Below, one piece after another: positions 4,520 to 31,868 of a stretch of DNA of 32,508 nucleotides. The stretch's first letter is position 1. Each line of letters begins with the position of its first letter. The notes under the pieces are model-generated. The model did not search any database and was not told where the DNA came from. It saw only the letters and a list, made by a program, of their open reading frames with translations. Source of the DNA: a virus; the IMG/VR virus record IMGVR_UViG_3300020317_000109, positions 1 through 32,508 of that record; one strand, written 5' to 3'. The translations under genes and the position numbers were made by a program.

Positions 4520-6017
4520 GATAGTAGTGCAGAAGAAGAATGAATGCTCTCTTCTGTTAGGTTGTGACAATGGTATCATTCAAGAACTAAATGAATATTT
4601 TTCATTTTTTGTTCCAGGATATAAGTACATGCCAAAATATAAATCAAAGATGTGGGATGGTAAGATAAAGATATTTAATGCTTTATCTCATGAATTGCCA
4701 GCAGGTTTGTTACATCAACTTAAAATATTCTCTAAGGAAAGAGGGTATGAATTAGACTATGAAGATGGTGAGTATGGACCACCAGAAGTTTTTAATAAAA
4801 TAAACCCTAAAGAAATTATGAATTTTATTGAAGGTTTGAATTTAAGGAGTCGTGGTGAACCGATATCTATAAGAAGTTATCAATTTGATGCTGTGTGTTC
4901 TGCTATAAGAGAAAGAAGGTCTCTTTTACTATCACCAACTGGATCAGGTAAATCTTTAATTATCTATGTACTCATGCGTTGGTACATGGAAAATCATCAC
5001 GATAATGTTTTGGTTATTGTTCCAACCACTTCACTTGTTCAGCAGATGTTTGCAGATTTTAGTGATTATTCATCACACGATGATAGTGTTAATATAGAAA
5101 ATGATTGTCATTTTATTTATTCTGGTCAAGCAAAAAATGGAATAAAAGAAAGAATAATTATATCAACATGGCAGTCAATTTATAAGTTACCTGCAACATG
5201 GTTTTCTAATTTTGGTGTAATTTTTGGGGATGAGTGTCATGGTTTTAAATCAAAATCTTTAACATCTATTATGAATAAGAGTAGAAATACTGGATACAGA
5301 TTTGGAACTACTGGAACTTTAGATGGGACTGAAACACATAAATTAGTATTAGAGGGATTGTTTGGTAAGGTAATAAAGGTAACCACTACAAAAAAATTGC
5401 AAGACGATTCAACATTAGCACCCCTTGAAATATATTTATTGAAATTAGAATATGATGAGGCTGATTGTTTTCAAAACGTAGGTAACACCTATGCCCAAGA
5501 AATTAATTGGATTGTTCTAAATGAAAAAAGAAATAAATTTATTCGCAATTTAGCATTAGATATGAATGGTAATACTTTAGTATTATTTCAATTTGTGGAA
5601 AAACATGGTAAGGTACTTTATGATCTGATTTGTGATAAAAAGGAAGATAAAAGAAAAGTATTTTTTGTTTCTGGTGCTACAGAAGCAACAGACAGAGAAG
5701 CGATTAGAAAAATTGTAGAAAGTCAAAAAGACTCAATCATCGTCGCATCTCTAGGAACCTTTAGTACTGGTATAAATATTAGGAACTTACATAACATAGT
5801 ATTTGCTTCTCCAAGTAAATCCCAAATTAGAGTATTACAAAGTGTTGGGAGAGGACTGAGAAAAAGTGATGATGGAAGAATTACTAAATTATATGATATC
5901 GTAGATGATTTGAGACACAAAAAGAAATTAAATTATGCTTTACTTCATGGGGAAGAACGATTGAAAATATATAAAAAAGAACAATTCAATTTTAAAAGGT
6001 ATGAGGTCCGATTATGA
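4512..6017 (+). CDS. uvsW: DNA/RNA helicase UvsW
   Basis: SF2 helicase that unwinds R-loops and branched recombination intermediates and drives the switch from origin- to recombination-dependent replication. The 501 residues match T4 UvsW (503). The N-terminal domain has the KMWDGKIKIF motif at residues 46-55. The Q-like motif RSYQFDAV is at 121-128, Walker A SPTGSGKS at 141-148, DECH at 240-243, and motif VI VGRGLR at 445-450. Translation starts at GTG 4512, which overlaps the end of uvsY. It overlaps the next gene by 4 bases (ATGA). Confidence 0.96.
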   Translation: MDKIVVQKKNECSLLLGCDNGIIQELNEYFSFFVPGYKYMPKYKSKMWDGKIKIFNALSHELPAGLLHQLKIFSKERGYELDYEDGEYGPPEVFNKINPKEIMNFIEGLNLRSRGEPISIRSYQFDAVCSAIRERRSLLLSPTGSGKSLIIYVLMRWYMENHHDNVLVIVPTTSLVQQMFADFSDYSSHDDSVNIENDCHFIYSGQAKNGIKERIIISTWQSIYKLPATWFSNFGVIFGDECHGFKSKSLTSIMNKSRNTGYRFGTTGTLDGTETHKLVLEGLFGKVIKVTTTKKLQDDSTLAPLEIYLLKLEYDEADCFQNVGNTYAQEINWIVLNEKRNKFIRNLALDMNGNTLVLFQFVEKHGKVLYDLICDKKEDKRKVFFVSGATEATDREAIRKIVESQKDSIIVASLGTFSTGINIRNLHNIVFASPSKSQIRVLQSVGRGLRKSDDGRITKLYDIVDDLRHKKKLNYALLHGEERLKIYKKEQFNFKRYEVRL

Positions 6018-13360: not shown

Positions 13361-13924
13361 ATGCAGAGTTTCAAATCTCACCTTATAAATGAAAGTGCGC
13401 TTAGTGCGCTAAGAACTGCGACGAAAGCCCACAAAGGGCAGTTTAGAAAAAGTGGTGGTGAATACATTGCTCATCCAAAAGAAGTCGCTAAAATAGTTGC
13501 TAAGTTCAAACCAAAATCAAAAAATTTATCTGCATTAGTTCAAGCAGCATATCTGCATGATACTATAGAAGATACTGATTTATCACACGCTGACTTAGTT
13601 AAGCAGTTTGGTGGGTTGGTTGCCAATCTTGTTGACCAATTGACCACTAAAAAAGATGATCTGGAAGCAGCAGGTGGTAAGGGTGAGTATATAAAAGATA
13701 AGATGGTCAACATGACAAGTTGGGCATTAGTTATTAAACTCGCTGATAGACTTGCTAATGTATCTGATATTAAGCAGCAGAAACCAGAATGGCAAAGAAA
13801 ATATGCTGGCGATACAAAATTGGCGTTAGACGCTGTAAAAAGAGATAGAAAACATTTGAGTCCTACGCATAAGAAAATTATTAAGAATATAGAAACTATT
13901 ATCAAACCTTATGTGAAAGGATAA
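13361..13924 (+). CDS. SpoT/MESH1-like HD hydrolase with capsid-targeting-like leader
   Basis: A 187-residue stand-alone HD hydrolase of the RelA/SpoT class, predicted to hydrolyse (p)ppGpp or a related nucleotide. The family motifs are all present: HKGQFRKSGGEYIAHP (His38) at residues 24-39, YLHDTIEDT with His66-Asp67, and VIKLADRLANV with Asp129. There is no synthetase domain, so the architecture is that of a MESH1-type hydrolase. The first residues, MQSFKSHLINE, look like a T4 capsid-targeting leader ending in an (I/L)xE gp21 site, with cleavage predicted after Glu11, before the enzyme domain. It starts immediately after the regA stop. The family is firm; alarmone specificity and packaging are inferred. 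Confidence 0.88.
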   Translation: MQSFKSHLINESALSALRTATKAHKGQFRKSGGEYIAHPKEVAKIVAKFKPKSKNLSALVQAAYLHDTIEDTDLSHADLVKQFGGLVANLVDQLTTKKDDLEAAGGKGEYIKDKMVNMTSWALVIKLADRLANVSDIKQQKPEWQRKYAGDTKLALDAVKRDRKHLSPTHKKIIKNIETIIKPYVKG

Positions 13925-14287: not shown

Positions 14288-15496
14288 ATGAAAAGTTTTA
14301 TATCTCATTTAAATGAAAGTATGTTAGAAAAACTTTTAACTATGAAAGTTAGAAAGTCTATTAAAAACGCTGGTGGTAAAATCTATCAAATTGGTGGTGT
14401 GGTTCGTGATGAACTACTTGGAAAGGTTTCAAAAGACTTAGACTTAATCGTTGTTGGTGTAGAACTAAGCGATTTAGAAGAAATATTAAAGCCTCACGGT
14501 AAAGTGAATATGGTTGGCAAATCTTTTGGTATTCTAAAATTTGTACCAACAGGTTCAACAGAAGAAGAAGATGTTGATATTTCAGTACCAAGAGTTGACT
14601 CTAAGAGTACTGGGGCTGGTCATAAAGATTTTGAGGTACAATTAGGAAAAGGTATTACTTTACAACAAGATCAGTTGAGAAGAGATTTTTGGATAAATCA
14701 ATTGGCTAAAGATGTTGATACTGGAGAGATTATTGACACTGATGGCAAGGGTATGAAAGATATTAAGAATAAAGAAATTCGTATGATCAGTCCTACTTCA
14801 TTTGAAGATGATCCTTTAAGAATGTTAAGAGCCATTCAATTCGCGGCTAGGTTTGAATTTAAAATTGAAAAAAATACTTTCAAGGAAATGAAAAAACAAG
14901 CACATACTATTTCATCAGTTTCTTCTGATAGATTCAATGAAGAATTTAAAAAACTTTTCACCAAATCAAAAAAACCATCAATCGGTGTAAAACTTTTATT
15001 TGAAAGTGGATTGATTAAACATTTATTCCCAAAGGCATCCATTAAAGACATTAATTTAAAAGCATTAGATAAACTAGAAACTAAAAACTATGGTGCTTTT
15101 ATAGGAATGGTTCTAATGAGTTATAAACAAGATGCTGGTAAAATCGCCAAGGCTGGAATGAAATTATCTAATATTGATTCCAAAGCAGTTCAATCTGTAA
15201 CTTCATACAAAGATATGGATTTAGTTAAATTAGTTGGATGGGCTAAAGATAACGATATTAAATCTGTTGATGCCTATCTTACTGCTATAGGAAAACCAAC
15301 AGTATCATCAAAATTAAAAGGTGTTAAATACCTTTCAATTAAAGAACTACCTATAAATGGAAAAGATGTTTCTCAATTGGGGTTTAAAGGTAAGAGTATA
15401 GGTGATGCTTTACAATCTGCATTAGATTTCTCTATTAAGACTAATAAAACAAGTAAAAACGATCTTCTTAAACATATAAATAGTAAGAACAAATGA
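14288..15496 (+). CDS. CCA-adding-enzyme/poly(A)-polymerase-type nucleotidyltransferase with capsid-targeting-like leader
   Basis: A 402-residue class II tRNA nucleotidyltransferase-like protein. The head-domain motifs are complete: GGVVRDELLG at 36-45, the catalytic DxD at Asp50 and Asp52 (KDLDLIV), a further acidic strand EDVDISVPR near 94-102, RRDFWINQL at 131-139 (family RRDFTINAL), and EDDPLRMLRAIQFAARF at 173-189. The role could be addition or repair of CCA ends on tRNA; a poly(A) polymerase cannot be excluded by eye. The N-terminus MKSFISHLNE carries the putative capsid-targeting leader with a gp21-type site after Glu10. The C-terminal 180 residues are divergent. No tRNA gene is seen in the window, so its substrate would be host tRNA or phage tRNAs encoded elsewhere. 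Confidence 0.88.
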   Translation: MKSFISHLNESMLEKLLTMKVRKSIKNAGGKIYQIGGVVRDELLGKVSKDLDLIVVGVELSDLEEILKPHGKVNMVGKSFGILKFVPTGSTEEEDVDISVPRVDSKSTGAGHKDFEVQLGKGITLQQDQLRRDFWINQLAKDVDTGEIIDTDGKGMKDIKNKEIRMISPTSFEDDPLRMLRAIQFAARFEFKIEKNTFKEMKKQAHTISSVSSDRFNEEFKKLFTKSKKPSIGVKLLFESGLIKHLFPKASIKDINLKALDKLETKNYGAFIGMVLMSYKQDAGKIAKAGMKLSNIDSKAVQSVTSYKDMDLVKLVGWAKDNDIKSVDAYLTAIGKPTVSSKLKGVKYLSIKELPINGKDVSQLGFKGKSIGDALQSALDFSIKTNKTSKNDLLKHINSKNK

Positions 15497-17045: not shown

Positions 17046-17735
17046 ATGAAATACTTTATATCAGCACCTTTTGGAAACTATTTAAAACTTCCTAACGCAA
17101 TTAGCGTAACTGGAAGTTGGACTGTTGAAAAAAGAGAAGGACTCATTCCTCAAATTTTTAAAACTCTTAGGTATAAAAATGGTGGATGGATTAATAAAAT
17201 TGGATTGCGTAACGCAGGAATATATGAAGGTTTAAAAAGAACAAACTCTACAGATGTGTTGAGCCTTGCCGCAATAAATGAATATGATTGGATAAATTTA
17301 GACCGCATAGTAGGTAAAAATTTGTCTGTTGAAATTAATATAAGTTGTCCAAACCTTGATAAAGATGTAGGAGCGGTTAATCTTCGCGGATTTGATTTAT
17401 TTCCTAAAAATAACAGAGAATGGTGTATATGTAAGATACCGCCTACTGCGACAGAATGTCTCATAGACAAGATAGTAGATTTGGGGTATAATCAAATACA
17501 TGCAAGCAACACTTTGTACTCTTTAAATGGGGGTCAAAGTGGAACAATTTTAAAACCATATACTACAAGGATTATAGAATATATAAAGAGAAAACATCCC
17601 AGTGTCACTATAATCGCTGGTGGTGGGGTTACAAATAAGGATGATGCAGAATTTTATTTTGATAAAGGCGCAGACTATGTAAGTCTAGGAACAGTATGTT
17701 TCACACCTTGGAAAATAAAAAACATAATTTCTTAA
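17046..17735 (+). CDS. Dihydroorotate dehydrogenase-like flavoprotein (compact)
   Basis: TIM-barrel FMN protein of the class 1 dihydroorotate dehydrogenase family, which makes orotate for pyrimidine synthesis. The 229 residues are about 70 fewer than usual. NISCPN at 98-103 contains the class 1 catalytic Cys (Cys101) and flanking Asn residues. KIPPT (Lys130), SNTLYS, GGQSGTILKP, IIAGGGV and SLGTVCF follow in the expected order, the last two forming the FMN phosphate site. In the N-terminal region, TGSWTVEKREG aligns with the usual TKSxTLExREG, so the conserved Lys contacting FMN and substrate is replaced by Gly23. Activity on dihydroorotate is therefore uncertain. It has no capsid leader and only a weak ribosome site. 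Confidence 0.8.
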   Translation: MKYFISAPFGNYLKLPNAISVTGSWTVEKREGLIPQIFKTLRYKNGGWINKIGLRNAGIYEGLKRTNSTDVLSLAAINEYDWINLDRIVGKNLSVEINISCPNLDKDVGAVNLRGFDLFPKNNREWCICKIPPTATECLIDKIVDLGYNQIHASNTLYSLNGGQSGTILKPYTTRIIEYIKRKHPSVTIIAGGGVTNKDDAEFYFDKGADYVSLGTVCFTPWKIKNIIS

Positions 17736-22003: not shown

Positions 22004-22564
22004 ATGAAACTAAAGCCAAGTGAAATGTACGATTTAGCAAAAAACAATGAAATACAGAATTATATACAAAACAATCTTTATGACCCATGGATAGGAAGCC
22101 CCTTTGAAGGATATAGATACATGGGTAATAAACAAAAGGGTGAACTAGGAGAGAGATTAGTAACTCTAATAATGGAAAAGGCTGGTTACAATGTTGAATT
22201 TGCTCACACATCAACCGCTGGATATGATAGAATTTTAAATGGAATTAAAACGGAAATTAAGTTTTCTGTTGCACATACAGACACTAAAAAAAGATCAATC
22301 AAAAAAGATTGTTTTACAATGAACCATGTCGCAGTTGGTAAAGATTGGGACCGTCTTATTTTTATTGGAGTAAATGAAAATCCTAATGAATTTAAGGCTG
22401 TGTATATGACAAAAGAAATGTTTGAAAACTGTCTGAAAACAGATAATCATTTTAATCATCAACAAGGTGGTAAAAAATCAAAGAATGATGATTATATGGT
22501 TACGGAGAAAAAACTTAGAGAACTAATACAATCAGAATATGTAAAAGAATTGAGTGAATGGTAA
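22004..22564 (+). CDS. PD-(D/E)XK-type restriction-like endonuclease
   Basis: A 186-residue protein with a restriction-endonuclease-like core: KQKGELGERLVTLIMEKAGYNV at 44-64 (the G-E-x-G-E helix typical of these nucleases), then AGYDRILNGIKTEIKFS at 73-88, supplying Asp75 and Glu84-x-Lys86 of the PD-(D/E)XK site. The C-terminal half is unrecognised. It overlaps the following DNA methyltransferase gene by 7 bases. This tight pairing is like a type II restriction-modification locus, so the likely role is cutting DNA that lacks the paired methylation, either host or competitor. Specificity cannot be read from sequence. Confidence 0.72.
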   Translation: MKLKPSEMYDLAKNNEIQNYIQNNLYDPWIGSPFEGYRYMGNKQKGELGERLVTLIMEKAGYNVEFAHTSTAGYDRILNGIKTEIKFSVAHTDTKKRSIKKDCFTMNHVAVGKDWDRLIFIGVNENPNEFKAVYMTKEMFENCLKTDNHFNHQQGGKKSKNDDYMVTEKKLRELIQSEYVKELSEW

Positions 22565-23286
22565 AAACTATACTTGGTGATTGCTTAGAGGTATTGCCTA
22601 CAATTGAAGATAATTCAGTAGATATGCTTCTTGCTGATCTTCCATATGGCACTACTGCATGTAAATGGGATTCTGTTATTCCATTAGATAAACTATGGGA
22701 ACAATACAATAGGGTTTGTAAGAAAAATGCAGCAATGGTTTTTACCGCAATGCAACCATTCACAACAATTCTTGCTGCTTCTAATATAGAAAATTTAAGA
22801 TATGAATGGATTTGGGAAAAACCTCAAGGTACAAATCCCATGAATGTAAAAATAATGCCTTTAAAGTCTCATGAAAACATCTTAGTATTTTACCGAGAGA
22901 AACCAACTTATAATCCTCAAATGTGGTATAGTACACCGTATTCTGGATTTAGTAGCGATACTGCAAAAATTGGTGAAGTGTATGGCAATGCTGAATCAAA
23001 ACATAGGGATAACCCAGAAGGATCAAGATACCCAAAAACAGTGATAAAACATAAACAAGAAAAGGGTTATCATCCTACTCAAAAACCAGTAGGTTTGATG
23101 AAATATTTAATAAAGACTTACACTAATGAATGGGATGTTGTTCTTGATAATACGATGGGTTCTGGAACTACAGGAGTTGCTTGCGTTCATACAAATAGAG
23201 AATTTATAGGAATAGAAAAAGAAGAAAAGTATTTTAAAATAGCAGAAAAAAGATTAGGAACAAATTTAAACGAATTTTTCTATTGA
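22558..23286 (+). CDS. DNA methyltransferase (DLPY type) paired with the nuclease
   Basis: S-adenosylmethionine-dependent DNA amino-methyltransferase, 242 residues. Motif IV DLPYGTT is at 27-33, HPTQKP at 172-177, and the SAM motif DNTMGSGTTG at 197-206, followed by EFIGIEKEEKYF. The IV-before-I order is that of the beta class. DLPY in place of DPPY is common in phage adenine or cytosine-N4 enzymes, and the target base is not deducible. The C-terminus GTNLNEFFY resembles the clamp-binding tails of gp43 and gp55. It is expressed with the preceding nuclease by overlap. Confidence 0.92.
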   Translation: MVKTILGDCLEVLPTIEDNSVDMLLADLPYGTTACKWDSVIPLDKLWEQYNRVCKKNAAMVFTAMQPFTTILAASNIENLRYEWIWEKPQGTNPMNVKIMPLKSHENILVFYREKPTYNPQMWYSTPYSGFSSDTAKIGEVYGNAESKHRDNPEGSRYPKTVIKHKQEKGYHPTQKPVGLMKYLIKTYTNEWDVVLDNTMGSGTTGVACVHTNREFIGIEKEEKYFKIAEKRLGTNLNEFFY

Positions 23287-24907: not shown

Positions 24908-25171
24908 GTGATAATGGGAAATAGTTTATTTGATGACGATGATGATCAGTCAACATCTGAATGGACAGATATGCCTGAGTTTGTCCAACCAAAGCAAGAA
25001 GAGTTTGCCAAGGTTATTGTTAGATTTCGTAATGAAGAAGATTTGAATGAGTTTCAAAAATTGATTGATCAAATCGTAACAACAAGAACAAAGAGTATTT
25101 GGCATCCAAAATTGGTTAGAGGTGCTACACTGCAAGAAGTTTGGGTTGATGAGTTTTTTGATGAAGAATAA
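24908..25171 (+). CDS. Conserved small phage protein, unknown function
   Basis: An 87-residue acidic protein. After an Asp-rich N-terminus (LFDDDDDQ) comes FAKVIVRFRNEEDLNEFQKL, then TKSIWHPKL, which I recall from a small marine T4-like phage family with no assigned role. The strand-helix layout suggests a ferredoxin-like small fold. GTG 24908 lies 5 bases after AAGGAG and ATG 24914 lies 11 bases after it, so either may be used. It overlaps the glycosyltransferase start by 11 bases. Confidence 0.75.
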   Translation: MIMGNSLFDDDDDQSTSEWTDMPEFVQPKQEEFAKVIVRFRNEEDLNEFQKLIDQIVTTRTKSIWHPKLVRGATLQEVWVDEFFDEE

Positions 25172-26036
25172 TTACCCAATATATGTGGTATCCAAAAATA
25201 GGTGGGAGAGTCGTATGACTATGAAGCACCTTGATTGGATGGGGTGTGATTATTATATTGTAATTGAACAATCACAGTGGAATGAGTATGCTGCAACTTG
25301 TGGTAAAGAAAGACTGTTAGTTCTTCCACAGTCATATATTGATGATTATGATACATGGGATAACTTGGGTGATAGCAAATCCAAAGGCCCGGGTGCTGCG
25401 CGAAACTTTGCTTGGGATCACTCAATAAGTAATGGTGACAAAAGACACTGGGTAATGGATGATAACTTTGAGGGGTTTTATCGCCTCAACAGAAACCGAA
25501 TTTTATTCTCTAAAACTCCTAGAGTTTTCTTGGCTATGGAAGATTTTGCTGATAGGTATGTTAATGCACCGATAGTAGGTCCAAACTATGCTTGCTTTGT
25601 AAAATCAACTGATTCTGTACCACCTTACATATTAAATACCAGAATTTATAGTTGTCTGTTGATTGAAAACGCAATCAAATATCGTTGGAGAGGGCGGTAT
25701 AATGAGGATACTGACTTATCACTAAGAGTATTGAAGGATGGATTATGTACTATTCAATTCAATGCATTCCTTGCTGGTAAACTTACTACACAAAAAATTA
25801 CTGGTGGTAATACTGATGAGTTCTATTCTAAAGAAGGTACTTATCCAAAGTCTAAGATGTTAGAGGATATGCATCCAGATGTTGCAAAGGTTGTTTGGAA
25901 ATTCAATCGCTGGCATCATCACGTAGATTACAAAAGATTTAGAAAAAATACCTTAATTCGTCATTCAAACTATACTCCAATAAAAGGTATAAATGAGTAT
26001 GGAATGAGGTTGGTTGATAGAAAAGGTTTAAGATAA
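25161..26036 (+). CDS. TET-associated-type glycosyltransferase (TAGT-like)
   Basis: A 291-residue GT-A-like glycosyltransferase. The pattern YPIYVVSKNRWESRMT, GPGAARNFAWDH, HWVMDDNFEGFYRLNRNR (DxD-type MDDN), ILNTRIYSCLLI, WRGRYNEDTDLSLRVL, and GGNTDEFY is the one I associate with the TET/JBP-associated glycosyltransferases, which add sugars to hydroxymethylated or otherwise modified bases in phage DNA. No TET/JBP dioxygenase is visible in this window. ATG 25161 overlaps the preceding gene. The sugar-activating genes at 26905-30612 lie close downstream and may feed it. The alternative is a protein or glycan glycosyltransferase. Confidence 0.78.
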   Translation: MKNNYPIYVVSKNRWESRMTMKHLDWMGCDYYIVIEQSQWNEYAATCGKERLLVLPQSYIDDYDTWDNLGDSKSKGPGAARNFAWDHSISNGDKRHWVMDDNFEGFYRLNRNRILFSKTPRVFLAMEDFADRYVNAPIVGPNYACFVKSTDSVPPYILNTRIYSCLLIENAIKYRWRGRYNEDTDLSLRVLKDGLCTIQFNAFLAGKLTTQKITGGNTDEFYSKEGTYPKSKMLEDMHPDVAKVVWKFNRWHHHVDYKRFRKNTLIRHSNYTPIKGINEYGMRLVDRKGLR

Positions 26037-26104: not shown

Positions 26105-26908
26105 ATGACATTTATAGCAGCAATGGATCATTCTGGTGGTAGCACTGGCGGTGTATTAGAGCGATATGGTCAAGAATATACTGAAGATAATAAAATGGAT
26201 TTAGTTCACCGTATGCGGTTGCGTATGGTATTGAACGAAAACTTTACAAGTGATAAGATTAGTCATGCAATTCTTTACAAAGATTCTGTTGAAAAGGATA
26301 TGGTGGCTGTTCTTGCAAATAAAGGTATCCATGCTATTCTGAAGGTTGATAGTGGATGTGAAACAAATGGTTTCCTAAAGGTATTTGATATTGATTCAAT
26401 GATACGTTTTGCTTTAGGGTCTGGTTGTGTGGGAACCAAAATGAGAAGTATCGTTAAGGATATGTATGATGTTCCAAAACTTCTTGATCAACAATTTGAG
26501 TTAGCGTGGAGAATTTCAAACGCTGGCCTCACGCCAATAGTAGAACCAGAAGTTCCTATTGATGCTTTTAATAAATCAGTCATTGAAAAGCATCTAAATG
26601 AAGAATTGATGAATCGTTGTAGAGATTTTCCTGGACAACTTATTCTTAAACTTACCATACCTGATATTTCAGAAACGTACAATAATTTGTATGAATACAA
26701 TTCAGTTGAAAAGATTGTTGGTCTAAGTGGGGGGTATTCAACTGAGGAAGCATGTGCCAAATTATCTTGCTCTCCACATATGAGTGCGAGTTTTAGTAGA
26801 GGTTTGAGTGAAGGTCTATTCCATTCACAAACAGATGAAGAGTTTAGTGAAAGAATTAAATCAAACATAGATATGATATATGAAGCAAGCAAATGGAGTA
26901 AAGTATGA
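26105..26908 (+). CDS. fda: Class I fructose-1,6-bisphosphate aldolase
   Basis: Schiff-base aldolase that interconverts fructose-1,6-bisphosphate with glyceraldehyde-3-phosphate and dihydroxyacetone phosphate. The 267-residue product follows the bacterial Fda family from end to end: FIAAMDHSGGSTGGVLERYG at 3-22, LVHRMRLRM, KGIHAILKVD (Lys80), GTKMRS at 110-115, GLTPIVEPEV at 141-150, LILKLTIP with the expected Schiff-base Lys182, VGLSGGYS at 205-212, and ASFSRGLSEGL at 228-238. It is about 25 residues shorter than bacterial relatives, mainly at the N-terminus, with active-site residues retained. It overlaps the cupin gene by ATGA and begins a run of carbon-metabolism genes. Confidence 0.92.
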   Translation: MTFIAAMDHSGGSTGGVLERYGQEYTEDNKMDLVHRMRLRMVLNENFTSDKISHAILYKDSVEKDMVAVLANKGIHAILKVDSGCETNGFLKVFDIDSMIRFALGSGCVGTKMRSIVKDMYDVPKLLDQQFELAWRISNAGLTPIVEPEVPIDAFNKSVIEKHLNEELMNRCRDFPGQLILKLTIPDISETYNNLYEYNSVEKIVGLSGGYSTEEACAKLSCSPHMSASFSRGLSEGLFHSQTDEEFSERIKSNIDMIYEASKWSKV

Positions 26909-27255
26909 CAGTCGCGGGTAAGGTATGGGGTCAAACAGAATTGATTGAAGCAAATGGTGCATTAGAATTTCATAGAATTCAAATGAAAGAAGGTGGTGTT
27001 TGTTCCAAACATATGCATGAATTTAAATGGAATGGATTTTATGTTGAAGAAGGTATGATGAAAATAAAGGTTTGGTCTGAGGATTATGATTTAGTTGACG
27101 AAACTATTTTAGGGCCAGGAGATTATACCAAAGTGAAACCCGGAGTTTTTCATCAGTTTGAGTGTATTCAATCTGGTATTGCATATGAGTTATATTGGGC
27201 AGAATTTAACCATAATGATATTGTGAGAGAAACAGTTGGTTATTCTGCTTTATAA
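26905..27255 (+). CDS. Cupin, mannose-6-phosphate isomerase-like
   Basis: A 116-residue single cupin domain. GKVWGQTELI opens the protein as in type II phosphomannose isomerase cupins. CSKHMHEFKWNGFYVEEG supplies the His-x-His and Glu ligands of cupin motif 1. LGPGDYTKVKPGVFHQFE supplies the motif 2 His. By analogy it could isomerise fructose-6-phosphate and mannose-6-phosphate. This fits a phosphomannomutase four genes downstream and the aldolase coupled upstream, but small cupins vary widely in function. I recall very similar proteins in cyanophages, also unassigned. Confidence 0.75.
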   Translation: MTVAGKVWGQTELIEANGALEFHRIQMKEGGVCSKHMHEFKWNGFYVEEGMMKIKVWSEDYDLVDETILGPGDYTKVKPGVFHQFECIQSGIAYELYWAEFNHNDIVRETVGYSAL

Positions 27256-27266
27256 AGGATATTAAA

Positions 27267-28127
27267 ATGAACGCATATGCTGATGCTGGTGTTAATATTG
27301 AAAAGGGAAATGAGATAGCAAAATATCTTGGTTTCAAAGATTTTGGTGCTTCTATAATGATTGGTGGTGAAGAAGTTGTAATATCCACTGATGGTGTAGG
27401 CACAAAAATTTTAGTTGCAGAAGCACAAAATAAATTTGATACCATTGGTATTGATCTTGTCGCAATGTGCGTAAATGATATTCTATGTAAGTTTGCTCAA
27501 CCAATAGGGTTTCTTGATTATTATGCAACAGGAGAACTATGTTTAGATAAATCAAAAGAGATTTTGAAAGGAATATTAAAAGGCTGTGAACTTGCTGGCT
27601 GTACTCTTATGGGCGGTGAGACTGCTGAGATGCCAGGAGTTTATGAAGGTTCTAAATTTGACCTTGCTGGTTTTGTTGTGGGTACTGTAATTGATCGTCA
27701 TGTACCTAGAATTGTGCAAGAAGGCGATATTCTTGTAGGCATTCATTCAAGTGGCCCACACTCAAATGGATTTAGTATGCTAAGAGAAGTATTACCAGTT
27801 GATGAAATACCACTTACACCCACAAGAATTTATACAGATGAAATACTGAATAACCATCATTTGATTAATGCAGTATCACACATTACTGGTGGTGGTCTTA
27901 TAGAAAATATTCCTAGAATGTTGGGGGGTAGAGAACATAGTTTAGAATTAAGCATAGGAAATAGTGAATGGTGGAATGATTTATATTTCAAATGTCAGAA
28001 TAAAATGGATATGAGAGAATTTTTAACAATATTTAATGGGGGTTATGGTATGGTGTTAGCCGTTTCTCCACACAATGTGGATAAGTTAAATATAGAAAAT
28101 GTTAAAGTAATCGGAAAAGTGTTATGA
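27267..28127 (+). CDS. purM: Phosphoribosylformylglycinamidine cyclo-ligase PurM (AIR synthetase)
   Basis: Fifth step of purine synthesis: FGAM plus ATP gives AIR. The product is 286 residues, shorter than E. coli PurM (345), mainly in the C-terminal part. Motifs: YADAGVNIEKGNEI at the start, STDGVGTK (nucleotide-binding loop), MCVNDILC, PIGFLDYYATG, GCTLMGGETAEMPGVY, GDILVGIHSSGPHSNGFSMLR, and HITGGGLIENIPRML. PurM is a known auxiliary gene in marine T4-like phages, serving the demand for phage nucleotides. It is coupled by ATGA to the next small gene. Confidence 0.95.
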   Translation: MNAYADAGVNIEKGNEIAKYLGFKDFGASIMIGGEEVVISTDGVGTKILVAEAQNKFDTIGIDLVAMCVNDILCKFAQPIGFLDYYATGELCLDKSKEILKGILKGCELAGCTLMGGETAEMPGVYEGSKFDLAGFVVGTVIDRHVPRIVQEGDILVGIHSSGPHSNGFSMLREVLPVDEIPLTPTRIYTDEILNNHHLINAVSHITGGGLIENIPRMLGGREHSLELSIGNSEWWNDLYFKCQNKMDMREFLTIFNGGYGMVLAVSPHNVDKLNIENVKVIGKVL

Positions 28128-28309
28128 TTGAAAAGCAGATTGCAGATTTACAAAGACGTATAGAAAAGTTAGAAGCAAGACCTGTATTATATCAAAGAAA
28201 GGGCGTTCTAGGTGATCCGAATGGTTTCGTTTATACTCAAGGACAAAACGCATTACATGAGCCTGTTGAATTAGAACATATTAAAAATAAAGGACTAGAA
28301 AATGACTAA
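28124..28309 (+). CDS. Small coiled-coil protein, unknown function
   Basis: A 61-residue protein. Residues 1-18 (MIEKQIADLQRRIEKLEA) form a clear heptad-repeat helix likely to oligomerise. The rest (GVLGDPNGFVYTQGQNALHE) is unstructured in appearance. It is coupled to purM (ATGA) and overlaps the PEPCK gene by 8 bases. Function unknown. Confidence 0.65.
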   Translation: MIEKQIADLQRRIEKLEARPVLYQRKGVLGDPNGFVYTQGQNALHEPVELEHIKNKGLEND

Positions 28310-29519
28310 TATCAACATCACAACAAATCCAACAGGACGTAGCCCAGAAAATAAATACTTTTTTGGTGATGCCACTTCAGAGTTATGCACAGAGAGATCA
28401 AAATATTGCAAAGTTGGTAATATGGATGATTATCTTTCATTTGCACATCAGATGCTTCCTAGCATGATAACAGAATATATTTACAAAAAACCTTTACAAT
28501 TTGAATCTGCAAATATTAGATTTCAAGTATATACCAATGATGAACGTCATGAACAATTTGTAAAAAATATGTTTGATGTACTACCTAAAGGATTTGGGCA
28601 TCATGTTCCAGATTGGACAATTTGGCACAACACTGAATTAGATGTGCCGCATCCTAAAATCTATGTAAACCTTGATACTAAAACCATGTTTATTGCTGGA
28701 ACCACATTTCTTGGTGAGATTAAGAAAGGTGTGTTTGGTATCATTGGATTTGAACTTCCTAAACTAGATTATCTACCTATGCATTGTAGTGCATTTACAT
28801 ATGATGCAACTACTAATTTAATGTTTGGTCTGAGTGGAACAGGTAAAACTACTTTGAGCAGTGATCCAAACTATGCGCTAATTAGTGATGATGAGGTTTA
28901 TTGGGATAATAACGGCATCAAAATGATTGAAACTGGATGTTATGCTAAGAGTGAGGGGTTATCTCCAGAAACACATAAGACTATTTTTGACGCTGTTGAA
29001 AAAGCGAAGGCAGAAGATTGCTTAGTTGTAGAAAATCCAGGTGTACCAAATGCAAGATTGAGTTACCCTATCACTTGTGTTGAAAACGCATATCATAAGC
29101 CTCAGAAATTTGATCATCCAGATAATATATTTTTCTTAACTATGGACGCAAAGGGTGTATTTCCACCATACAGCAAGATTAGTGGTGAGACAGTTCGTAG
29201 ATTTTTTGAAACTGGATATACAAGTCAGATGCCAGGAACTGAGAAGGGCGCAACTGAGATTAAGCCACTCTTTAGTCCATGTTATGGATCACCCTTTATG
29301 CCAAGGCCAGTGAAAGAATACAGTGACTTATTAATGCGAAAAATTCATGAAAATAATTGTAATGTGTATTTGATTAACACTGGAATGGATAAGGATGGAA
29401 AGCGTTTTTCTCTTGACTTTACACGAAAATGTGTTAAAATGTGTATAGAAAATAATATGGAAGATAAGAGTCAAGAAGTATTAAAAACTCTTGAGGATTT
29501 AATAGGCAATAAAATATGA
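28302..29519 (+). CDS. pckA: Compact ATP-dependent phosphoenolpyruvate carboxykinase
   Basis: Predicted to catalyse oxaloacetate plus ATP giving PEP, CO2 and ADP. The 405 residues (bacterial enzymes about 530-540) keep the ATP-type PEPCK signature in order: TGRSPENKYF at 11-20 (oxaloacetate-binding Arg13, like Arg65 in E. coli), GEIKKGVFG at 138-146 (metal Lys142), MHCSA with His161, P-loop GLSGTGKTTLSSDP at 176-189, SDDEV with Asp196-Asp197, ARLSYPI with Arg252, FLTMDAKGVFPPYSKIS at 278-293, and TSQMPGTEKGATE at 307-319. YLINTG and GKRFSLDFTR follow. The missing length is mostly N-terminal to the TGRSP motif and at the C-terminus. The gene is coupled to the phosphomannomutase-like gene by ATGA. 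I know of no well-studied phage PEPCK. Confidence 0.93.
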   Translation: MTNINITTNPTGRSPENKYFFGDATSELCTERSKYCKVGNMDDYLSFAHQMLPSMITEYIYKKPLQFESANIRFQVYTNDERHEQFVKNMFDVLPKGFGHHVPDWTIWHNTELDVPHPKIYVNLDTKTMFIAGTTFLGEIKKGVFGIIGFELPKLDYLPMHCSAFTYDATTNLMFGLSGTGKTTLSSDPNYALISDDEVYWDNNGIKMIETGCYAKSEGLSPETHKTIFDAVEKAKAEDCLVVENPGVPNARLSYPITCVENAYHKPQKFDHPDNIFFLTMDAKGVFPPYSKISGETVRRFFETGYTSQMPGTEKGATEIKPLFSPCYGSPFMPRPVKEYSDLLMRKIHENNCNVYLINTGMDKDGKRFSLDFTRKCVKMCIENNMEDKSQEVLKTLEDLIGNKI

Positions 29520-30220
29520 TTCACTATATATTTGATGTTGATGGAACACTTACGCCAAGTAGGGCCAAGATGGATGAAAAATTCAGTTCATTCTTCTTTG
29601 ACTTCTGCACATTAAATAATGTATATCTTGTCACTGGTAGTGATAAAGAAAAAACAATTGAACAAGTTGGTAATGTTATATACGGTATGTGTAAACGTGT
29701 CTATAATTGCTCTGGTAATGATGTGTGGGAAAGAAGTAAAAATATAAGAAAGAACAATCTCAAACTACCAGACACAATGTGGGGATATCTGAATAAAGAG
29801 ATATGTGAAAGTGAATTTCCTGTTAGAACTGGTGGTCATATTGAAGAAAGAACGGGCCTTGTAAATTTATCTATCGTGGGTAGAAATGCTGGAAAACGTG
29901 CTAGAACTCAATATGTGGCTTGGGATAATCATACAAATGAAAGAAAAAATATTGCGAAACGACTGTCAGAAAAATTTACAGAATTTGATTTTAATGTTGC
30001 TGGTGAAACTGGAATAGATATTACGATAAAAGGTAACGATAAATCTCAGATATTGACAGACTTCACTAAATCTGATATAATACATTTTTATGGAGATAAA
30101 TGTGATTTCGGTGGTAATGATCACACTATAGCAATGGGAGTGTATGATCTTGGCGAACCGAACTCAGTATATCAAGTGCAAGATTGGAGAGAAACTTGGG
30201 AACTACTAAAGTCGGTATAA
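29516..30220 (+). CDS. Eukaryote-type phosphomannomutase-like HAD phosphatase
   Basis: A 234-residue HAD-superfamily protein similar to eukaryotic phosphomannomutase (PMM1/2): FDVDGTLTPSR (nucleophile Asp7, acid/base Asp9), VTGSDKEKTIEQVGN, GGHIEERTGLVNLSIVGRNAG, and the C-terminal FYGDKCDFGGNDHTIAMG, which matches the FFGDKTxxGGNDxEI element of PMM2. GDIDIT-like residues (GETGIDITIKGNDKSQIL) correspond to GQISFDVFPxGWDK. It likely interconverts mannose-6-phosphate and mannose-1-phosphate, or a related hexose phosphate. It lies between PEPCK and a nucleotidyltransferase, overlapping both. Confidence 0.87.
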   Translation: MIHYIFDVDGTLTPSRAKMDEKFSSFFFDFCTLNNVYLVTGSDKEKTIEQVGNVIYGMCKRVYNCSGNDVWERSKNIRKNNLKLPDTMWGYLNKEICESEFPVRTGGHIEERTGLVNLSIVGRNAGKRARTQYVAWDNHTNERKNIAKRLSEKFTEFDFNVAGETGIDITIKGNDKSQILTDFTKSDIIHFYGDKCDFGGNDHTIAMGVYDLGEPNSVYQVQDWRETWELLKSV

Positions 30221-30612
30221 CAGCATCAACTTTTGATTTTCTACATGCTGGTCATGTTGCTATGTTACGTGAAGCAAAAACACAATGCGATTATTTAATA
30301 TGTGCATTGCAAGTTGATCCGTCAATAGAAAGACCACAGAAAAACAAACCACTACAGACATTGGTTGAGCGACATACTCAACTCGCTGGTGTGAAGTATG
30401 TTGATGAAATTATCCCATACCAAACAGAGCAAGACTTAGAAGATATATTATCCATGTTTCCTATAAACGTAAGGATTATAGGTGAAGAATATAAAAATGG
30501 TAAGTTTACTGGTCGCGCTATTTGTTCAAAGCGTGGCATAGAGATATATTATAACAAAAGAGACCACAGATTTTCATCTAGTGATTTAAGAAAGCGAGTA
30601 AAAGATATATGA
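30196..30612 (+). CDS. Cytidylyltransferase-like nucleotidyltransferase (HxGH family)
   Basis: A 138-residue nucleotidyltransferase of the TagD/RfaE-C type. KVGITASTFDFLHAGHVAML carries the HxGH motif, YLICALQVDPS follows, and SSSDLRKRV near the end is the usual nucleotide-binding ISSSxxR element. Such enzymes join a nucleotide to a phosphorylated alcohol or sugar (for example glycerol-3-phosphate or heptose-1-phosphate). Start choice: TTG 30196 has GGAGAG (30186-30191) at 4-base spacing; TTG 30184 is also in frame but has no site. It overlaps the preceding gene by 25 bases. The substrate is unknown; next to a phosphomannomutase, a sugar phosphate is plausible. Confidence 0.85.
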   Translation: MGTTKVGITASTFDFLHAGHVAMLREAKTQCDYLICALQVDPSIERPQKNKPLQTLVERHTQLAGVKYVDEIIPYQTEQDLEDILSMFPINVRIIGEEYKNGKFTGRAICSKRGIEIYYNKRDHRFSSSDLRKRVKDI

Positions 30613-31868
30613 TTATTAATGGTGACTGTATTGAAGAAATGCAGAAATTAATTGACCAAGGCGTTCAAGTTGATGCGGTAGTTACAGACCCACCATATCA
30701 CCTACAATCTATTGTAGACAGATTTGGAAAAACATCTCTAAGCGATGATACTAAGACTTCAGAAAGAGCGAGAGATCGTAGTGACGGTTACGCGAGAATG
30801 TCTGCTGGTGGTTTCATGGGTCAAGAGTGGGACGGTGGCGATATTGCATTTCGTGCTGAGACTTGGAGACTTGCTTGGGAATTATTGAAGCCAGGTGGAC
30901 ACTTACTTGCATTTTCGGCTTCACGCAATTATCATAGAATGGCAGTTGCGATTGAGGATGCTGGGTTTGAAATTCGTGATCAAATGATGTGGTTATATGG
31001 AAGTGGATTTCCAAAGTCTCACAATATTGGAAAAAATATTGATAAGATGCCAAATGCAGATTTAAATGCTTTTTCTAAAGCACTTAAAGAGAAAAGAATT
31101 GAATTAGGCTACTCTTTGACGGAAGCAGACGAGTTAATAACTGGTGGCTCAACCATGTATTCTTTTTTAGAGGGCAGAAGGAATAATGATGTGTATCCAC
31201 CAAATAAAAAATATTGGGAAAAGATAAAAGAACATTTTGGCATGGACGGTTGGGACAAAATTATTGAAAACAACTTGAAAGTTGTGGGTGAAAAGGATGG
31301 TAACTTTGGTTATCAAAAAGATGGTAAAAGATGGAAAAACACAACCAATGAAACTGAAATGACAAGTAAAACAGCAAAGCAATGGGAAGGTTGGGGTACT
31401 GCACTTAAACCAGCACACGAACCGATTGCGGTAGGTCGTAAACCAATATCCGAAAGTACTGTTGCTAAGAATGTATTAAAACATGGTACTGGTGCAATCA
31501 ACATTGATGCTAGTCGGATTAAATCTAGTGAAAGTATTGAGGGCAGATTCCCAGCAAATGTAATGCACGATGGACTACAGCAAGATTGGGCGCGTTTCTT
31601 CTATTGCCCAAAAGTATCAAAAAAAGAACGTGGCGAGAATAACAAACACCCGACAGTCAAACCACAAGAATTAATGAAATACTTAGTGAGGCTTGTCACG
31701 CCTAAAGGTGGTACTGTACTTGATCCATTCATGGGTTCCGGCTCTACTGGTATGGCAGCAAAAGATTTGGGTTGTAATTTTATTGGCATTGAGAAATCAG
31801 AGGATTATTTTAAAATCTGTCAAGAACGAATTGATGAAACAAACCCACTAAGCGAATTTTTTGACTAG
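30609..31868 (+). CDS. DNA methyltransferase with inserted HTH domain
   Basis: Beta-class DNA amino-methyltransferase, 419 residues. Motif IV TDPPYH is at 26-31, GGHLLAFSASRNYHRM at 96-111, HPTVKP at 347-352, and the SAM motif DPFMGSGSTG at 372-381, with FIGIEKSEDYF. An extra segment at about 152-212 (FSKALKEKRIELGYSLTEAD, then FLEGRRNNDVYPPN and YWEKIKEHFGM) looks like an XRE-type helix-turn-helix inserted before the target-recognition region. The C-terminus NPLSEFFD resembles the clamp-binding tails of gp43 and gp55. It is coupled to the nucleotidyltransferase gene by ATGA. Target base and site unknown. Confidence 0.92.
   Translation: MIINGDCIEEMQKLIDQGVQVDAVVTDPPYHLQSIVDRFGKTSLSDDTKTSERARDRSDGYARMSAGGFMGQEWDGGDIAFRAETWRLAWELLKPGGHLLAFSASRNYHRMAVAIEDAGFEIRDQMMWLYGSGFPKSHNIGKNIDKMPNADLNAFSKALKEKRIELGYSLTEADELITGGSTMYSFLEGRRNNDVYPPNKKYWEKIKEHFGMDGWDKIIENNLKVVGEKDGNFGYQKDGKRWKNTTNETEMTSKTAKQWEGWGTALKPAHEPIAVGRKPISESTVAKNVLKHGTGAINIDASRIKSSESIEGRFPANVMHDGLQQDWARFFYCPKVSKKERGENNKHPTVKPQELMKYLVRLVTPKGGTVLDPFMGSGSTGMAAKDLGCNFIGIEKSEDYFKICQERIDETNPLSEFFD

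Follow-up and report, generated by a model that had tools for sequence, protein, structure and literature searches.

Most of the known metabolic genes of marine phages act in photosynthesis or in the pentose phosphate pathway of cyanobacteria. What task, then, could an ATP-type PEPCK and a class I aldolase homologue have amid sugar-activation genes in a T4-like phage? We examined this question in a viral sequence of 32,508 nt, here called the window (IMG/VR record IMGVR_UViG_3300020317_000109, positions 1 to 32,508), to which all coordinates refer. The marker proteins gp23, S77 prohead protease, UvsY, UvsW, the SbcCD pair, clamp, RegA and PolB confirmed that it is a T4-like phage.

Layout of the locus

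Seven tightly packed genes on the (+) strand occupy positions 26105-30612 and encode, in order, an aldolase, a cupin, PurM, a 61-aa protein, ATP-PEPCK, a phosphomannomutase family protein (PMM) and a nucleotidyltransferase (NTase). The run is flanked by a TAGT glycosyltransferase gene upstream and a DNA methylase gene downstream (Table 1). The initial annotation had given the same seven open reading frames in the same order, and all were found where it had placed them. It had also described almost all of them as overlapping by ATGA or a few bases, which agrees with the measured spacings (negative values are overlaps): -4 bases for aldolase/cupin, PurM/61-aa gene, PEPCK/PMM and NTase/methylase, -8 for 61-aa gene/PEPCK and -37 for PMM/NTase, the exception being cupin/PurM at +11. 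The end of the run at 30612 has to be moved, since the overlapping methylase gene continues it. The overlapping genes are probably translationally coupled. The TAGT gene directly upstream was absent from the earlier entry on this locus; its true start probably lies about 10-14 codons 3' of the GTG.

Compared with relatives, the cassette genes, including those for PEPCK and aldolase, are under purifying selection, with dN/dS of about 0.04-0.23. Because of this selection and the recurrence of the genes together in many viral contigs, the gene set is more than a chance assembly. Profile searches with the 61-aa protein gave no convincing family match.

Table 1. Features of the window considered in the analysis
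Feature	Coordinates	Strand	Family match or remark
Dihydroorotate-dehydrogenase-like (DHODH-like) protein	17046..17735	+	PF01180 (9.6e-13)
TAGT-family (TET-associated) glycosyltransferase	25122..26036	+	PF20691, phrog_842
Class I fructose-bisphosphate aldolase homologue (FdaB-like)	26105..26908	+	NF003784, PDB 2iqt
Small cupin	26905..27255	+	Cupin_2, phrog_7851
PurM (phosphoribosylformylglycinamidine cyclo-ligase)	27267..28127	+	TIGR00878, phrog_1207
61-aa protein	28124..28309	+	Stays beside PEPCK in close relatives
ATP-type PEPCK, shortened virus-specific subfamily, 405 aa	28302..29519	+	PF01293
Eukaryote-type (HAD-IIB) phosphomannomutase family protein	29516..30220	+	PF03332
HxGH nucleotidyltransferase (RfaE-II / TagD-like)	30184..30612	+	PF01467
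N6/N4 DNA methylase	30609..31868	+	PF01555 (121.6 bits); ends overlapping run

PEPCK

The PEPCK matched PF01293 (PEPCK_ATP) with 308.5 bits (cut-off 26.5; E 9.8e-92) and stayed below the NCBIfam equivalog and subfamily cut-offs. It is shortened at both ends and shares about 32% identity with the Salmonella enzyme, to which the residues were mapped with a one-residue offset. The P-loop GLSGTGKTT, the kinase-2 DD, Arg65, Lys212, Lys213, His232, Arg333 and Arg449 (E. coli numbering) are all in place, and R13, K141, K142, H161, S178-T184, D196, D197, R252 and R368 are invariant in the set A1. Tyr207 of the CO2/oxaloacetate site (E. coli numbering) is replaced by Phe136. Across 34 cluster representatives this position is Phe in 32 and Tyr in 2, and the remaining active-site residues checked are invariant. 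The predicted fold (AlphaFold, pLDDT 83) agrees with that of solved PEPCKs, with a TM (query) of about 0.8. Based on these features, the protein is predicted to convert oxaloacetate and ATP to PEP, CO2 and ADP.

All occurrences of the subfamily that we found lie on viral or apparently viral contigs, and all the phages bearing it are uncultured. A cellular home was sought in 84,980 genomes with subfamily-specific patterns, a sample that leaves ordinary cellular PEPCKs outside. Only two MAG contigs were returned and both look viral, one with the PEPCK-PMM-NTase-methylase order of the window (L126) and the other with neighbours resembling those of a viral relative (L127). In isolated phages, the matches to PEPCK or aldolase were limited to bacterial contigs or assemblies with apparent bacterial contamination.

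Aldolase and the gluconeogenic steps

We call the aldolase a homologue and not an equivalog because it scored below the cut-offs of both NF003784 (224.5 bits against 392; E 1.7e-66) and PF00274 (21.9 bits, just under the gathering score of 22.2). It matched PDB 2iqt with an E of 2.4e-40. The Lys residues of LILKLTIP and GTKMRS and the Asp of AMDHSGG are kept among 42 viral sequences; the Schiff-base lysine and the catalytic Asp/Glu/Lys are present, and the PIVEPEV motif is also conserved. The protein is a predicted fructose-bisphosphate aldolase.

A third gluconeogenic gene, GAPDH, is encoded by relatives with its motifs kept and lies near PEPCK in 9 of 34 clusters. In L197 and L198, a close relative of the window, it stands between Hsp20 and a DHODH-like gene that overlaps it. 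GAPDH and PRPP synthetase were each present in 2/30 of the first record set and were more frequent in the wider one. Triose-phosphate isomerase was found in 0 of 28 relatives, and a complete phage-encoded gluconeogenic set was rejected for these records. The cassette also has no FBPase gene, so the host has to supply the steps between. The proposal of gluconeogenesis from PEPCK and aldolase accordingly holds for the linkage, the catalytic residues and the GAPDH of relatives, and fails as a complete set.

Sugar activation and DNA modification

The cupin passed the Cupin_2 cut-off (29.6 bits, cut-off 27.2; E 5.8e-7) and, with three conserved His, probably binds a metal. It belongs to phrog_7851, labelled 'cysteine dioxygenase'; cyanophages P-SSM2 and S-SM2 have a cupin with that label too, adjoining their HAD and NTase genes. 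The PMM matched PF03332 with 84.7 bits (cut-off 22.4; E 1.1e-23) and PDB phosphomannomutases with E values down to 3e-23, and its nucleophile motif DVDGT and the arginines of IEeR, GRN and aRT are kept among 31 viral sequences. The NTase, annotated as phrog_7878, matched PF01467 (CTP_transf_like) with 45.7 bits (cut-off 21; E 9.6e-12) and scored 73.4 bits against TIGR02199, the ADP-heptose synthase domain II, below its cut-off of 181.5; its class is settled by sequence at the level of CTP_transf_like membership alone. It is 71% identical to Vibrio phage proteins, and in Acinetobacter phage Ab1-TPeters a relative adjoins a PMM homologue. A mannose-specific route from fructose-6-phosphate through cupin, PMM and NTase, as first suggested, is not supported: the cupin did not reach the cut-off of PF01050, the mannose-6-phosphate isomerase family (15.3 bits against 23.6), and the NTase belongs to the HxGH family, unlike hexose-1-phosphate nucleotidyltransferases of the GT-A type.

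The TAGT protein scored 140.5 bits against PF20691 (cut-off 27.5) and shares 47-62% identity with proteins from T4-like phages of Aeromonas, Vibrio, Tenacibaculum and Pectobacterium. PMM, cupin, NTase, MazG and TAGT are grouped in two related contigs, both with PEPCK elsewhere. Related PEPCK phages also encode an AGT-like DNA glucosyltransferase and a thymidylate-synthase-family protein resembling dCMP hydroxymethylase. PF00303 is present in four of them and absent from the contigs of the window's own lineage, which are fragments. A TET scan of these fragments gave no match and is uninformative, its control being silent too. DNA is a putative target of glycosylation.

Neighbourhoods of PEPCK in viral relatives

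Viral relatives of the PEPCK, grouped at 90% identity, formed 34 clusters, which are not fully independent lineages. Near PEPCK we found PMM in 14 clusters, aldolase in 13, cupin in 13, NTase in 11, KdsA in 10 and GAPDH and a HAD phosphatase in 9 each. The search of marine viral contigs for kept PEPCK-aldolase-PMM neighbourhoods, which had been proposed at the outset, was thus positive. With aldolase near PEPCK in 13 of 34 clusters and PMM, cupin or NTase in 11-14 of 34, the possibility that the genes are scattered in all related phages can be set aside. Starts and stops of the neighbouring genes often overlap. In a GAPDH-centred scan of 30 clusters, aldolase and PEPCK were each present in 11. 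A within-contig distance test gave Fisher p values of 0.001 for aldolase and 0.005 for GAPDH, and is weak, as most partners were seen only in fetched flanks; it carries no weight in our reading. None of the listed partners lay within the flanks examined of several PEPCK phages (L051, L043 and L127).

Gene order varies: HAD-GAPDH-aldolase-(SGNH)-PEPCK in L162, aldolase-GAPDH-PEPCK-HAD in L170, PEPCK-HAD-(DHODH-like)-GAPDH-aldolase in L152, HAD-PEPCK-aldolase-DegT-GMD in L157 and L141, and KdsA-PEPCK-KdsB-cupin-PMM-NTase-Ugd in L181 and L189. The HAD partner is similar to AfhF, the D-arabinose-1,5-diphosphate phosphatase of phage HY126. KdsA, a PEP-consuming KDO-8-P synthase, scores above an equivalog cut-off in relatives; as a universal PEP sink it was rejected, being near PEPCK in 10/34 clusters and absent from contigs of 177 kb, 172 kb and 147 kb.

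Discussion

Then, what would such a cassette do? With middling confidence, we propose that it supplies carbon and activates sugar, yielding an NDP-sugar for glycosylation, most likely of phage DNA by TAGT. Enzyme activities, gluconeogenic direction and sugar identity are here predicted. During infection, PEPCK would turn oxaloacetate of the host, derived from amino acids or the TCA cycle, into PEP; host enzymes, with GAPDH where relatives encode one, would bring the carbon to triose phosphates, which the phage aldolase would join to fructose-1,6-bisphosphate. Sugar phosphates could be isomerised and shifted to the 1-position by PMM together with either the cupin or an isomerase of the host, after which the HxGH NTase would activate them. 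The NDP-sugar so formed would be consumed by glycosyltransferases, of which the adjacent TAGT, with phage DNA as its substrate, is the likeliest. Nucleotides may be a second sink, with PurM, the DHODH-like protein and, in relatives, PRPP synthetase drawing part of the same carbon.

More tentative is the wider idea of a widespread marine phage strategy in which gluconeogenic entry (virus-specific PEPCK, GAPDH and aldolase) is dedicated to sugar that hypermodifies phage DNA. If so, phages of organic-acid-fed cells would pay for DNA glycosylation from the TCA cycle. A conserved set of PEPCK-GAPDH-aldolase, sugar-activation and DNA-glycosyltransferase genes would show a source of sugar carbon for phages of organic-acid-eating marine bacteria and would link the armouring of phage DNA to the central metabolism of the host. 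The cassette also offers testable enzymes.

Nucleotide supply may instead be the main purpose, the sugar genes being separate neighbours, with PEPCK and aldolase driving carbon by way of gluconeogenesis into the non-oxidative pentose phosphate pathway towards ribose-5-phosphate/PRPP, PurM and the DHODH-like protein. PurM lies within the run (256 bits against TIGR00878, cut-off 236, with AIRS/AIRS_C domains matched) and also adjoins PEPCK in L027; PRPP synthetase adjoins GAPDH or aldolase in L022, L140, L151 and L146 and is near GAPDH in 6/30 GAPDH clusters; the DHODH-like gene adjoins GAPDH in L152, L197 and L198. Marine phage metabolic genes in general serve dNTP synthesis. However, PRPP synthetase was present in 4/34 PEPCK clusters and PurM in 2/34, fewer than PMM, cupin, NTase or KdsA, and the most frequent immediate neighbours of PEPCK are the sugar genes KdsA and PMM. 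We regard this purpose as rather unlikely.

Less probable still is a hot spot at which related phages acquire metabolic genes that share no task and whose linkage reflects common descent. Tight packing is common among the genes of these phages, the clusters are partly related, and PurM, MetK and KdsA/KdsB come and go around PEPCK; yet metabolically linked partners with overlapping reading frames recur despite varied order and phage backbone. Reverse flux, in which PEPCK would carboxylate PEP with CO2 to yield oxaloacetate and ATP while aldolase and GAPDH run glycolytically for energy and precursors, is quite improbable: the three enzymes are reversible and PEPCK is a carboxylase in some anaerobes, but the ATP-PEPCK of most heterotrophs works toward PEP, and relatives couple PEPCK to KdsA, which consumes PEP. 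Most improbable is recruitment of PEPCK as another small-molecule or DNA kinase or a decarboxylase in hypermodification, its oxaloacetate activity gone, which the truncation, divergence, Phe at position 207 and sugar and DNA-modification neighbours would fit, but against which stand the otherwise invariant active site and an E. coli Y207F PEPCK crystal with oxaloacetate bound, per the title of PDB 6at3.

Among known systems, RB69-like phages (Mosigvirus) and related Straboviridae are likewise T4-like and carry a sugar-modifying cluster with NTP-transferase and glycosyltransferases, but the clusters described there have isomerase, epimerase and sugar kinase (PMC6024577, PMC13390438); PMC13390438 includes TAGT among its classes of DNA-modification genes. 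The T4-GC 304-307 cassette of cyanophages P-SSM2 and S-SM2 shares with the window the phrog_7878 NTase, the phrog_7851 cupin and overlapping genes, and its HAD phosphatase is homologous to the HAD adjoining PEPCK in the window's relatives; it differs in having a carbohydrate kinase (P-SSM2) in place of PMM and in being without such a PEPCK or aldolase. The pentose phosphate pathway genes talC, zwf and gnd also redirect host central carbon, but draw on Calvin-cycle sugars, whereas the entry here would be oxaloacetate via PEPCK, GAPDH and class I aldolase (PMC4053976). The giant viruses Catovirus and Klosneuvirus encode PEPCK; these are eukaryotic viruses, and their longer enzymes show 14-26% identity (PMC9270025). 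Viral pckA and ALDO are listed among the auxiliary genes of Kermadec and Diamantina trench sediments as pathway annotations, with linkage, GAPDH, PMM, NTase and glycosylation context absent from the parts of that report consulted (PMC12448302). The view that a PEPCK/aldolase pairing is undescribed thus stands for the linkage, of which we found no report, and not for the single genes; viral pckA and aldolase had each been described before.

Gene content of the cassette and its recurrence

The window is a 32.5-kb portion of a T4-like phage genome, with genes for gp23 (MCP), S77 prohead protease, scaffold, UvsY, UvsW, late sigma factor, an SbcCD pair, clamp, clamp loader, RegA, PolB and UvsX. The MCP is 65%, 60% and 58% identical to those of the nearest isolates, Phage C48C1, Methylophilales phage Melnitz and Pelagibacter phage HTVC008M, respectively. 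All seven ORFs that the initial annotation had named in 26105-30612 were borne out; they encode a class I aldolase, a cupin, PurM, a 61-aa protein, ATP-PEPCK, a phosphomannomutase family protein (PMM) and a nucleotidyltransferase (NTase). Most cassette neighbors overlap by 4-37 bases, and the sole gap within the seven-gene set is the 11 bases between cupin and PurM. The aldolase gene is preceded, at a distance of 68 bases, by a TET-associated glycosyltransferase (TAGT) family gene, and a DNA methylase gene prolongs the run beyond the NTase. The methylase of the 30609-31868 type is present in two copies in at least one relative, L038.

One-protein scans located PEPCK at 55 viral loci and aldolase at 42. 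A profile scan yielded 113 PEPCK-encoding stretches, 80 of which were retained, and clustering of the PEPCK set at 90% identity gave 34 clusters, which are not wholly independent lineages. The contigs are fragments, and the partner counts are lower bounds because they were made in the fetched flanks only (8-10 kb per side). Near PEPCK, PMM was found in at least 14 of the 34 clusters, aldolase and cupin in at least 13 each, NTase in 11, KdsA (PEP-consuming KDO-8-P synthase) in 10, GAPDH and a HAD phosphatase in 9 each, KdsB and MetK in 6 each, an HMase-like protein in 5 and PRPP synthetase in 4. A separate GAPDH-centered scan yielded 30 clusters; aldolase was nearby in 11 of them and PEPCK in 11.

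Gene arrangements and feature coordinates in the window and in other contigs (L- and G-numbers)
Contig	Coordinates	Genes	Remark
ARRANGEMENTS (a), window lineage		TAGT-aldolase-cupin-PurM-small-PEPCK-PMM-NTase-methylase	
(b) L181, L189		KdsA-PEPCK-KdsB-cupin-PMM-NTase-Ugd	nearly all genes overlap
(c) L162, L152, L170, L160		PEPCK, GAPDH, aldolase, HAD phosphatase	4-base overlaps in several
(d) L022, L140, L151		enzymes of (c) plus PRPP synthetase	
(d) L146		PRPP synthetase-GAPDH-PEPCK	
(e) L157, L141		HAD-PEPCK-aldolase-aminotransferase-GDP-mannose dehydratase	
(f) G014, G017		PolB-PMM-cupin-NTase-MazG-TAGT-primase	PEPCK and aldolase elsewhere on same contigs
(g) L008/L010/L013 group		PEPCK-PMM-primase-cupin-NTase, then thymidylate-synthase-family protein and dCMP deaminase	
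Window	22558-23286; 30609-31868	two distinct N6/N4 DNA methylases	flank region from just past polymerase to cassette end
Window	14288-15496	CCA-adding/poly(A) polymerase-like protein	PF01743
Window	13361-13924	HD_4 protein	ppGpp-hydrolase-like type
L023	8598-9407	HxGH NTase fused to mannose-6-P-isomerase-type cupin	
L250 (P-SSM2); L249 (S-SM2)	4992-5336; 5001-5330	cyanophage T4-GC 306 gene	annotated 'phosphoheptose isomerase'
L010; L162; L045	11226-12320; 4676-5785; 1949-3028	MetK (S-adenosylmethionine synthetase)	adjoins PEPCK in several phage lineages
L022	4883-8820	PstS-like binding protein, then apparent phosphate ABC-transporter components	between aldolase and PEPCK
L013; L152; L004	6682-7110; 4733-5155; 3182-3622	pseudoazurin-like (blue copper)	in several PEPCK phages, near PolB or aldolase; by eye, sequence only
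L030; L047	16127-17182; 7178-8272	Bmp/PnrA-family nucleoside-type ABC binding protein	in PEPCK phages

Close relatives of the window have MetK in place of PurM, or PurM is absent. MetK beside PEPCK possibly serves the phage methylases. In L197 and L198 the GAPDH gene overlaps a DHODH-like gene, immediately upstream of Hsp20, and the window has the same site without GAPDH. The aldolase gene of G017 is overlapped by a GAPDH gene. In arrangement (g), the thymidylate-synthase-family protein is read as dCMP-hydroxymethylase-like, and L008 additionally encodes an AGT-like DNA glucosyltransferase and a C5-cytosine methylase.

Predicted enzymes

The window PEPCK scores 308 bits to PF01293 and is about 32% identical to Salmonella PckA over the aligned part. 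Compared with PckA it lacks about 47 residues at the N-terminus and two stretches close to the C-terminus, which accounts for its short length (405 aa). The P-loop, the kinase-2 aspartates and the equivalents of Arg65, Lys212, Lys213, His232, Arg333 and Arg449 are retained, and its AlphaFold model (pLDDT 83) has a TM (query) of about 0.8 to solved PEPCKs. Of the 34 viral clusters, 32 have Phe in place of Tyr207 (E. coli numbering). Since E. coli PEPCK Y207F was crystallized with oxaloacetate, according to the entry title of PDB 6at3, this change alone does not exclude the PEPCK reaction. Two MAG contigs filed under Flavobacteriales (L126) and Neomarinimicrobiota (L127, 335 kb) appear from their gene content to be viral; as they carry a phage-type PEPCK with viral neighbors, they are probably misbinned.

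Homologous to FdaB-type class I enzymes, the aldolase retains its lysines and scores under the equivalog cut-off. The PMM is a HAD-IIB phosphomutase with its active-site arginines retained, the roles of which we take to be those in human PMM1/PMM2. The NTase is of the HxGH class by sequence, and the three histidines of the cupin are conserved. In L023 the NTase-cupin fusion adjoins PEPCK and aldolase, and in the isolate Ab1-TPeters an NTase adjoins a PMM homologue. The HAD partner is homologous to AfhF, the D-arabinose-1,5-diphosphate phosphatase of phage HY126; in cyanophages P-SSM2 and S-SM2 relatives of this partner adjoin NTase and cupin genes. The T4-GC 306 product is a small HAD protein akin to AfhF-type phosphatases, so its public annotation is probably wrong.

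Proposed role and relation to known systems

The recurring PEPCK partners fall into two linked sets. PEPCK, GAPDH and aldolase would lead from oxaloacetate to sugar phosphate, and the HAD phosphatase, cupin, PMM, NTase, KdsA/KdsB, Ugd, GMD, TAGT and AGT-like transferases would make an activated sugar from this phosphate and transfer it. Together with the AfhF-like HAD, the NTase-PMM pair in Ab1-TPeters and the L023 fusion, this division suggests that the window cassette supplies carbon and activates sugars for glycosylation, nucleotide synthesis being a putative second sink. We infer the direction of flux, the identity of the sugar and DNA as the glycosylation target. At 34% GC, a 150-kb genome would hold roughly 51,000 cytosines; with a burst of tens, even partial glycosylation would therefore consume on the order of a million sugar units in each cell. 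Such a demand per infected cell may offer a rough rationale for a phage-encoded carbon supply.

Viral pckA and aldolase are already listed as auxiliary metabolic genes (PMC12448302), fba has been reported from marine viromes (PMC4053976) and giant viruses carry PEPCK (PMC9270025). In the open-access literature we found no paper describing the PEPCK-GAPDH-aldolase set or linking it to sugar activation. DNA arabinosylation in RB69-like phages uses sugar-gene clusters (PMC6024577, PMC13390438), and the DNA-modification gene classes of Straboviridae include TAGT (PMC13390438).
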